Source of the DNA: a virus
Reading direction: 5' to 3' (one strand)
DNA length: 28,897 bases
Virus record (IMG/VR): IMGVR_UViG_3300044645_000980
Span: 1 to 28,897 of that record
Part shown: piece by piece, positions 24,844 through 26,975 of the stretch
Layout: each line of letters opens with the position of its first letter
How positions within the stretch are numbered: position 1 is the stretch's first letter
Notes under the pieces: generated by a model
Databases searched by the model: none
What the model saw: only the letters and a program-made list of their open reading frames with translations
What the model was told of the DNA's origin: nothing
Program-made: the position numbers and the translations under genes

Positions 24844-24878
24844 CGATATATAGCGGACTGAACCGGGAACAATTCCGC
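24844..24878 (-). promoter_or_regulatory. Control unit copy C, facing left
   Basis: Read on the minus strand, the unit gives TTGTTCCCGGTTCAGTCCGC followed by TATATATCG. With -35 TTGTTC and -10 TATATC the spacer is 16 bases. The GGAGGG ribosome site of the leftward gene follows immediately, leaving a very short leader. Confidence 0.5.
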
Positions 24879-24938
24879 CGGAAAACATTCCCGACGGTTC
24901 ATATATAGTATCGGCTATTCCATCGGCCGCAAGAATTA

Positions 24939-24982
24939 TTTTCGGGAATTGTTCCGGCCGCAGTCCGTTATATATCGTCCGA
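24939..24982 (+). promoter_or_regulatory. Control unit copy A, facing right
   Basis: The unit begins TTTTCGGGAATTGTTCCGG and ends AGTCCGTTATATATCGTCCG, close to identical with copy B and an imperfect inverted repeat of copy C. Right after it lies a CGTCCG-accga-CGGACG dyad. Confidence 0.5.
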
Positions 24983-25084
24983 CCGACGGACGAACGAACG
25001 GACGGTATCAACGTCCGTTTCGCACGTTCGGCAGTGACGATACGCTGTCTGCCTTGCGTTATGTAGGCAGTGACGGGGCAAAGA

Positions 25085-25129
25085 TTTTCGGATTTTTGTT
25101 CCGCCGTCGGTCCGTTATCTATCGTCCGA
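25085..25129 (+). promoter_or_regulatory. Control unit copy B, facing right
   Basis: The unit begins TTTTCGGATTTTTGTTCCG and ends GGTCCGTTATCTATCGTCCG, about 146 bp after copy A in the same direction. It lies about 70 bp before the first rightward ATG (25199), the right place for its promoter. Its GTCCGTT also pairs with AACGGAC at 25134-25140. Confidence 0.5.
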
Positions 25130-25198
25130 TTCAACGGACGACCCGGGAGGGAGTAACGTATAACTCTCTCCGCATGCGGGCAGTCAAAGGGAGGTCTA

Positions 25199-25315
25199 AT
25201 GATCGACACTGGTATGTTCGACATGTACCTTCAATATCGCTATGCGTGGAATGCGTACCACACGGACTCATGGGATGTTCTGTGGGCCGCCTTGTGGTTC
25301 GCAAGCCGCGTGTAA
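25199..25315 (+). CDS. 38-aa aromatic-rich peptide, first rightward gene
   Basis: The gene has AAAGGGAGG just before its ATG at 25199 and ends at a TAA that abuts the next ribosome site (TAAGAGGAGGTGTCATG). The product, MIDTGMFDMYLQYRYAWNAY followed by HTDSWDVLWAALWFASRV, is rich in Trp and Tyr. Its last 15 residues could sit at a membrane surface. As the first gene after the divergent control region it is probably expressed early. I recognise no family, and short length limits what can be said. Confidence 0.65.
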   Translation: MIDTGMFDMYLQYRYAWNAYHTDSWDVLWAALWFASRV

Positions 25316-25326
25316 GAGGAGGTGTC

Positions 25327-25536
25327 ATGTACTGTGACGTGAACTTCAGGACTAAGAAAGCCCTGAAGGAGGCTGTGCTGGCGGGCCGAGAGATCGGCGT
25401 GTTCCAGGTCGGCCCCTTTGGGAGCGGGGACTACTCCAACGGCAAGTTCGCCGTGGAGGGTCCGCACTATCCCGAGCCCCACCGCTGGTATGCCAGCGTG
25501 GAGGTGCGGGAAGGGAAGATTGTCAGCGTGAGGTGA
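25327..25536 (+). CDS. Conserved small phage protein (VEGPHYPEPHRWYA type)
   Basis: This 69-aa protein is read from the ATG at 25327, with GAGGAGGTG upstream. The sequence (FRTKKALKEAVLAGREIGVF; QVGPFG; FAVEGPHYPEPHRWYASVEV; REGKIVSVR) belongs to a small family I have seen in many phages and plasmids, with the order KKALKxAV ... I.VFQ.GPFG ... VEGPHYPxPHxWYA. Its function is unknown to me. The conserved His/Pro/Trp core suggests a compact beta domain. The structured non-coding element begins eight bases after its stop codon. Confidence 0.8.
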   Translation: MYCDVNFRTKKALKEAVLAGREIGVFQVGPFGSGDYSNGKFAVEGPHYPEPHRWYASVEVREGKIVSVR

Positions 25537-25572
25537 TCGGGCCGCCGGGCAGGGGAGCAGTGACCCCTGTCC

Positions 25573-25658
25573 CGGCATCCGAGCCCGGGCAGGTGGCTGC
25601 GGCTAACGGGCGATTGCCCAGGTAAGTCCGAATGCTGCCTGCCCGGGTTCGGTTGCCG
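25573..25658 (+). repeat. RNA module M1
   Basis: The module reads CGGC-AT-CCGAGCCCGGGCAGG ... CCTGCCCGGGTTCGG-TT-GCCG. The inner 15 bp include one G-U pair, and the flanking CGGC/GCCG can add four more across a 2x2 internal loop. Inside is a GGGC-GATT-GCCC hairpin (25608-25619). Confidence 0.75.
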
Positions 25659-25676
25659 TTGGTATACTCATGTATA

Positions 25677-25847
25677 CGGCGTCCGAAAGCGTTCACGGAA
25701 AACTATAGCTCTGGCCGGTTTCCTTCGCTGGGCAAGAGTCCGGCGTGGAGTGATCACCCACAGCCCAGCGAACTGCCGCGTGGCATCCCGTCAAACAACG
25801 GGCAGCCGGTACGGCTAGAACGTATCCGTGAACGCCTTCGGTTGCCG
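25677..25847 (+). repeat. RNA module M2
   Basis: The module reads CGGC-GT-CCGAAAGCGTTCACGGA ... TCCGTGAACGCCTTCGG-TT-GCCG, with one A-C mismatch in 17 bp. Inside are a perfect 10-bp stem TTCGCTGGGC/GCCCAGCGAA (25724-25733/25763-25772) and hairpins TGCC-gcgt-GGCA (25774-25785), CCCGT-caaaca-ACGGG (25788-25802) and AGCCG-gta-CGGCT (25804-25816). Confidence 0.78.
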
Positions 25848-25991
25848 TTTCGGTGGGTAGCCGTCGCCTCTGCCTGTGCCTGGGAGTAATTACCTAGGAC
25901 GAAAGCAGCGTGGACGGCTTCCTGTGGTCCGTAACAGGGTTGCCACACGGGCAATAGGGGTGGACCGTCAATGCCCCGCCCGCCGTTTCTA

Positions 25992-26136
25992 CGGTGTCCG
26001 AATAGCCCCCTCTGGGCAAAACGCATTCGACGGGGTGCGTAGTCAACGCGGGGAGAACCGCCAACCGCCTGCTCCTAGGGCAGCCTCGGTGGCTTGCGAT
26101 CCAACCGTTGGCTCAGAGGGTGCTATTCGGCTGCCG
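25992..26136 (+). repeat. RNA module M3
   Basis: The module reads CGGT-GT-CCGAATAGCCCCCTCTG ... CAGAGGGTGCTATTCGG-CT-GCCG, with one C-U mismatch in 17 bp. Inside are CGCA...TGCG (26022-26039) and CTGC...GCAG-type (26069-26083) hairpins and a CCAACCGTTGG near-palindrome (26101-26111). Confidence 0.75.
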
Positions 26137-26162
26137 TTCGGTAGCCATTCACGGAGGTGCGT

Positions 26163-26975
26163 ATGGTCGCAAGATCACGCACCGCCAAGCCGCTCGGTGT
26201 CATTCTGCACCGAGGCCGGTCGCCGTTCGACGGCTCGCCCTATGTGGTCATCATGCCACTGGGCAAGTCTTCCAACAGCAAGACGGGCAAGATGCTCCAG
26301 ACCTACATCATTAGGTCGCATGTGCATCCGGTCCAGGCGGTGCGCACGGGTGGCGATGGTGCCATCTGCGGCACAGGCGAGCATGCCTGTCCGCTGCAAG
26401 GGCTGATGGTCCGGAAGCGCGGCAAGCGTAAGTTCCGGGCCTGCTATGTCAACGTCGGGCAGGGTCCAGCCATGGTCTATGGGGCGTTCCGCAGGGGACG
26501 CTATGTGGACTATGTGCCGGCACTGCATGACGAATACATCCGGGGCCGGAAGGTGCGGTTTGGCACCTACGGCGAGCCGGTGCTGATTCCCCTGGAGCTG
26601 GTGCAGCATCTGGCCAGCCTTTCATCGGGCTGGACCGGGTATACTCACCAGTGGTCAAGTGTTCAGTATGCCGACTACCGGCAGTACCTCATGGCCTCTG
26701 TGCATGGGGTATCTGGCCCGTGGTCATACGAACACGCCAAGTCTTTGGGCTGGCGTACGTTCCGCACCATGCGTGGTGGCGAGCCGCTGCCGACTGAGCG
26801 GCTCTGTCCGGCCAGCAAGGAAGCGGGGCATCGTCTGTCCTGCCTCACCTGCAACCTGTGCGATGGTGCAGGCCGCAGGCAGATAGGTCTGGAGTTGGTG
26901 GACGTTTACATCCCCGGGCATGGTGGCAAGGCGATTATGTCTGCCGTCGCCAACCTGCCCATCCTGCAAGCGTGA
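26163..26975 (+). CDS. Conserved phage protein with TGYTHQW and Cys-cluster motifs
   Basis: This 270-aa protein is read from the ATG at 26163 with GGAGG upstream; a GTG two codons earlier is in the ribosome site and unlikely. Recognisable stretches are GEHACPLQG (first Cys pair region), RKVRFGTYGEPVLIPLELVQ, SGWTGYTHQWSS, LGWRTFRTM, and a C-terminal cysteine group CPASKEAGHRLSCLTCNLCD. The order matches an uncharacterised family I have met in phages and plasmids, where the last Cys cluster probably binds zinc. It directly follows the structured RNA, so the RNA may also act as its leader. No enzymatic function is known to me. Confidence 0.78.
   Translation: MVARSRTAKPLGVILHRGRSPFDGSPYVVIMPLGKSSNSKTGKMLQTYIIRSHVHPVQAVRTGGDGAICGTGEHACPLQGLMVRKRGKRKFRACYVNVGQGPAMVYGAFRRGRYVDYVPALHDEYIRGRKVRFGTYGEPVLIPLELVQHLASLSSGWTGYTHQWSSVQYADYRQYLMASVHGVSGPWSYEHAKSLGWRTFRTMRGGEPLPTERLCPASKEAGHRLSCLTCNLCDGAGRRQIGLELVDVYIPGHGGKAIMSAVANLPILQA

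Follow-up and report, generated by a model that had tools for sequence, protein, structure and literature searches.

The element described here lies close to the beginning of an operon that runs rightward in a 28.9-kb virus record, IMGVR_UViG_3300044645_000980 (28,897 nucleotides, which as a whole are called the window), whose portal and large terminase genes are on the opposite strand. It fills the space between a small open reading frame and phrog_2554, a gene of unknown function, and the features of the region are as follows.

25172..25183, + strand: leader motif GCATGCGGGCAG, preceding the first small genes
25327..25536, + strand: upstream ORF of 69 aa, whose TGA stop codon (25534-25536) adjoins the element
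25537..25576, + strand: hp0, an additional hairpin at the 5' end, which carries strand S'0 TCGGGCCGCC
25573..25658, + strand: module 1, with S1 (25573-25582), a variable apical stem and S'1 (25649-25658); shows covariation
25677..25847, + strand: module 2, with S2 (25677-25686) and S'2 (25838-25847)
about 25851..25985, + strand: domain 2b, closed by CGGTGGG/CCCGCCG, with a branched interior
25992..26136, + strand: module 3, with S3 (25992-26001) and S'3 (26127-26136)
26129..26146, + strand: H2, in which S'3 pairs with strand T (26140-26146), excluding S3:S'3
26153..26186, + strand: H3 hairpin, holding the Shine-Dalgarno sequence (26153-26158) and the start codon (26163-26165)
26163..26975, + strand: downstream gene phrog_2554, 270 aa from ATG

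No tRNA or tmRNA was found in the window, and the region has no promoter match and no + strand terminator match (terminators: 24850-26300). At megablast level there is no close phage relative in GenBank; the sole distant DNA match of note is that of the upstream small gene to Pseudomonas phages Lucjan and Ab20, and a covariance model finds no element in the Lucjan stretch. The leader motif precedes the element in 25 of 35 loci. At 25172-25183 it includes a CCGCATGCGG palindrome, and through CGGGCAG, a match to the 5' arm in the stem of module 1, it might compete for CTGCCCG, the 3' arm. In one relative (L018:8333-9496) the same operon carries an amidoligase-like gene (phrog_2443, phrog_7469) downstream of the element.

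Fold and modular composition

The 631-nt stretch 25535-26165 folds at -338 kcal/mol, compared with -273 ± 6 kcal/mol for 20 dinucleotide shuffles. The margin is 65 kcal/mol (z -10.5). Selection on RNA structure, for which a preliminary description of the window had argued, is supported. In 15 elements tested, z on the + strand ranges from -3.4 to -9.0, and the + strand energy is lower than the - strand energy in 14 of 15 elements tested. The three long inverted repeats reported in that description are all present, at 25573-25593/25638-25658 (90% complementary), 25677-25699/25825-25847 and 25992-26020/26108-26136, and they share the base signature it had pointed out (CGGCATCCGA/TCGGTTGCCG, CGGCGTCCGA/TCGGTTGCCG and CGGTGTCCGA/TCGGCTGCCG). 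Its spacing of exactly two nucleotides between domains is only approximate, as linkers run from 2 to 18 nt. It had not included the start hairpin, the pairing of S'3 with 26140-26146, hp0 (which is present also in L005, L006, L008 and L021) or domain 2b, a fourth domain without the signature; with these, the window's element is composed of hp0, modules 1, 2 and 3, and 2b. A conserved protein frame, which the same description had set against an RNA reading, is rejected: element lengths (83, 85, 88, 101, 103, 113, 115 nt and so on) are not multiples of three, and the interior is fully exchanged.

Relatives were collected by a scan for phrog_2554, which gave 79 IMG/VR loci, 32 of them forming a cluster apart (72-89% identity, the rest 49% or less), and by two pattern scans for the RNA itself, which gave further loci, some with the element before other genes. 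A covariance model was built on the single-module form. Across about 37 related IMG/VR loci, drawn from related phages such that sequence counts are not event counts, the element has one to four tandem modules that have been recombined between phages, and the distance from stop to start is 83-626 nt. The repeated-module design proposed earlier is borne out, and the element is not one fixed large RNA. The discrete noncoding RNA of roughly 600 nt that had been envisaged does not hold, because single-module relatives of about 85 nt keep the same flanking features, and size is thus not conserved. This simplest form (L009, L019) runs through S (10 nt, immediately after the upstream stop codon), a stem CCCGGGCAG...CTGCCCGGG whose apical part is free, S' (TCGGYTGCCG), a short loop and T (GGTARTCGG), followed by the Shine-Dalgarno sequence and then the start codon; larger forms add extra modules in tandem.

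Modules move as units: the window's module 2 has a 99.4% identical counterpart in L086, and the domain 2b region (25848-25991) has a 98.6% identical copy in L171, each standing alone between modules 1 and 3. The apical regions, the most variable part, are exchanged between loci independently of the stems. Inspection by eye suggests that the module 3 apical region of several relatives could form an H-type pseudoknot of GCTGA with TCAGC; in several versions TCAGC sits in a hairpin loop closed by about 8 bp, and the two arms of that hairpin change in concert, again by eye (for example from ACTCCC/GGGAGT to ACGCATCC/GGGTGCGT). Otherwise unlike apical parts of module 1 (such as 25600-25635 in the window) have in common a recurring internal-loop motif, GG-YUARC-hairpin-AASUAARU-CC-GAAUGC, which may be a tertiary or protein-binding motif. 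The module 3 apical part of L032 resembles no other and contains GGCTAGGTACCAGAAGAGG twice, as a direct repeat.

The covariance model places the element at one site per contig in the 24 whole contigs tested. Each genome, of about 60 kb, has one element, which in every case precedes a gene start, and with one site per genome a dispersed mobile element is rejected. A 117778-base contig (IMGVR_UViG_3300049595_001870) holds two elements (L107, L119) 59 kb apart, which match those of L093 and L117, and it probably joins two genomes. Weak second matches lie 6-8 kb downstream of the main element at G010:C1:9804-9934 (20 bits) and G011:C1:14094-14224 (18 bits), and are perhaps a degenerate copy. The model found no element in the distant loci searched or in bacterial genome matches, and none was seen in the 20 upstream regions of distant phrog_2554 homologues that we read; the search of bacterial genomes for relatives returned only distant ones and one MAG contig at 68% identity, which is without the element.

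Modules that move as blocks, and a mosaic of upstream genes with a precise junction at the element, could also reflect a DNA-level exchange site, an integron attC-like or boundary sequence for swapping upstream genes in which RNA structure is secondary. We regard this as highly improbable. An attC-like array is expected to have several sites with intervening genes, whereas each genome has one locus and no genes lie between modules. In addition, G-U pairs are conserved, the + strand folds better in most loci, conservation is specific to the transcribed strand, and H3 extends into different coding sequences with compensatory changes.

The strong structure, domain shuffling, apical pseudoknot, recurring internal loops and concentration of variability in the apical regions might instead suggest a trans-acting phage RNA, be it ornate, a decoy or anti-defence, whose apical domains are a diversifying active payload. 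Such a role is very unlikely, as there are single-module elements with apical parts of just 16-18 nt (L009, L011), the region lacks a promoter or + strand terminator match, and the constant features, a stop codon and a start hairpin, are cis ones. Membership of GOLLD, ROOL, OLE or raiA, which the preliminary description had entertained, finds no support, and RNA of this kind is not in Rfam: there is no match at gathering thresholds, and a permissive scan yielded only low-scoring miRNA-type hairpins and a 15-bit Chloroflexi-1 match. GOLLD and ROOL, which are often near tRNA genes and form a homo-oligomeric RNA cage, are likewise large, highly structured phage RNAs with pseudoknots and a variable part (PMC12286853). 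The element differs from them in having no Rfam match, nearby tRNA or fixed size, and in that its constant parts are its ends, at the stop and start codons.

A stop codon and a start hairpin bound the element

In all 35 tabulated loci the upstream ORF has its stop codon right at the element, separated from it by 2 nt at most, either as TGA or TAA directly or as TAG plus the same A. L021, L106 and L171 also agree, and a departure was seen only in L008, where the stop codon stands 13 nt short of the element. The upstream ORFs have an SD-like sequence upstream, encode 22-174 aa and fall into 12 unrelated clusters (blastp at E 1e-3, single linkage, with tiny ORFs hard to compare); most are full-size genes, and the tiny ones have 22, 25 and 35 aa. 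In L022, the gene usually found upstream is followed by a 22-aa ORF, and it is this ORF that ends at the element. An abutting stop codon across 12 ORF clusters argues that termination at this point is part of the design. The length of the S strand is about that of the mRNA held by a terminating ribosome past the stop codon, or A site.

At the other boundary, the Shine-Dalgarno sequence and start codon lie inside H3 in all loci. The 50-nt start region of element loci has a mean energy of -21.0 kcal/mol (n=35, worst -17.8), compared with -7.1 kcal/mol for 24 homologues of this gene that have no element and also lack H3, and with -10.8 ± 4.4 kcal/mol for 132 genes of these phages with a Shine-Dalgarno sequence and ATG, a set that includes some element-bearing starts, so that the contrast is if anything understated. 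Within H3, 98.5% of cells are paired and four of the seven outer pairs have changes on both sides; the choice of arm strings by folding favours pairing, but the compensatory changes are independent of that choice. H3 is kept though N-terminal codons differ, and before non-homologous genes (phrog_2554, MRLAYAPANAKL, MGYSIARIVQ, MGYHAARIVQ). Strong start hairpins are also predicted at other candidate starts (-22.5 kcal/mol at L022:11199 and -19.9 kcal/mol at L020:7507). Pairing of the Shine-Dalgarno sequence with S, seen in some loci (L019, L140), is not general and was rejected, and no consistent partner for T was found in the H3 region when S' is absent.

Exclusive pairings and proposed control of the downstream start

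S' is able to pair with either S or T, and these pairings are mutually exclusive. Among 29 distinct strings, 92.3% of S':T cells are paired, with both-side changes at two pairs, one of which has five pair types, although T was chosen by best pairing, which biases towards S':T. For S:S', 82.8% of cells are paired (29 distinct strings), with one both-side-changed pair and two compensations; there is a fixed mismatch, and further pairs are broken in many loci. The covariation score of each register, in counts that include H3, was reached by no shuffle. Covariation supports both registers, S':T more strongly than S:S', and in two loci all three strands have changed together (L021: S' TCAGG, S TCTGA, T GGTGCCTG; L022: S' TCCGG, S CGGA, T GGTATCGGG). 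Blocking one partner at a time gives an energy difference between the registers of only -0.3 ± 3.0 kcal/mol (35 loci). Where there are several modules, S' can also pair forwards, with the S of the module that follows, and S'1:S3 pairs at 9-10 of 10 positions where scorable. No intrinsic terminator that would form in one of the registers was found: the T-rich tail after H2 is not conserved, and there is none on the + strand between 24850 and 26300. By analogy, the arrangement of S, S' and T is an attenuator layout with a relay option.

RNA processing offers another account of the near-perfect helices (about 20 bp or longer in the S:S' register) that stand between genes with their apical sequence free. 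The stems would be sites for RNase III or another endonuclease that separate messages, as in the T7 early sites and the lambda N leader, and H2 and H3 would protect the newly made 5' end or control translation once the RNA had been cut. We find this quite unlikely, since RNase III needs neither a conserved primary sequence like that of S, S' and T nor a stop codon at the stem base, and some modules are short (the main stem of L019 has 11 bp).

Action of the element in cis on the downstream start has good support and is probable; exchange among S, S' and T as the means of that action is somewhat short of an even prospect. We therefore put forward only tentatively the reading that this is an intercistronic RNA by which downstream translation depends, via strand exchange, on ribosomes terminating upstream. 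In the resting RNA, the ribosome-binding site and start codon would be hidden by H3, and with no ribosome at the upstream stop codon S would pair with S', extending the module stem. A terminating ribosome would then cover or melt S, freeing S' for T or, alternatively, for the S of the next module, such that the exchange could be handed along the array. Start-adjacent RNA would be remodelled and the downstream gene made translatable, with the apical parts acting mostly as exchangeable cargo or stabilisers. A fuller version, which we consider doubtful, is a relay RNA in which interchangeable modules, whose closing strand pairs backwards or forwards, would carry a termination signal over 80-600 nt to the hidden start, and which phages would add to, trim and swap by the module, like cassettes.

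Several observations sit poorly with strand exchange. H3 is a local hairpin predicted in both registers, so the switch alone leaves its opening unexplained. In loci with hp0 (the window, L005, L006, L008 and L021) the ribosome would be on S'0 rather than S, and the predicted register at T is thereby reversed. The 13-nt gap in L008, the 68%-identity MAG gene without an element and the mismatched and broken S:S' pairs also count against this reading.

Ribosome-controlled attenuators, such as trp-type transcription attenuation, ermC-type translation attenuation and RepY/RepZ of IncI-type plasmids, resemble the proposed system in that a ribosome, by where it stands when an upstream ORF ends, selects between exclusive pairings that control the next gene. 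The element has two exclusive conserved pairings, albeit with weaker support for S:S' than for S':T, but it has no terminator hairpin, no regulatory or stalling codons and, across 12 unrelated upstream ORF clusters, no conserved leader peptide. Its register, moreover, can run through several modules. Hidden-start coupling, as in the MS2 lysis gene and rpmI-rplT, shares with our proposal a start-site hairpin dependent on upstream translation (PMC12548453). In those cases the hairpin is opened directly by the ribosome, over spacings from about -50 to +52 nt (PMC12548453), whereas the element interposes 83-626 nt of folded RNA; because greater distance normally weakens coupling in E. coli (PMC12548453), a gap of this size calls for a special device.

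The main rival to strand exchange is a device of another kind, a folded bridge analogous to a ribosome shunt, in which the hairpins fold away the spacer and a ribosome that leaves the stop codon at their base re-initiates at a start site about 30-45 nt past the last stem, melting H3. A bridge would span the 83-626 nt gap whatever the number of modules or the presence of hp0, and it fits a stop codon at the stem base, a hidden start site, an apical part variable in length and sequence, and the little single-stranded linker between modules. In the shunt leaders of plant pararetroviruses (CaMV, RTBV) and RTSV, too, an upstream ORF ends at the base of a large stem with a variable apical part (7-8 nt before the basal helix in the pararetroviruses) and ribosomes land behind it, where the downstream start lies (PMC5902531); the corresponding distance here is 0-2 nt in 35 loci (13 nt in L008). 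Those leaders, however, serve eukaryotic scanning 40S subunits, while the element would serve bacterial Shine-Dalgarno initiation with 0-nt spacing, and it differs further in its tandem swappable modules, competing T, hidden start and upstream ORFs that are usually full genes. We judge the bridge doubtful. It leaves the S':T covariation unexplained, as that pairing would break the basal stem, the literature searched for a bacterial ribosome shunt yielded none, and structure just after a stop codon lowers coupling, according to a screen as summarised in PMC12548453.

If the cis reading is true, bacterial translational coupling can act over hundreds of nucleotides by way of a folded, modular RNA, and these phages carry a new class of regulatory RNA whose domains evolve by shuffling. 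Such an element would provide a natural design for synthetic operons, and would allow a direct test of whether, in bacteria, a ribosome or its signal can be conveyed from stop to start by a spacer that is folded.
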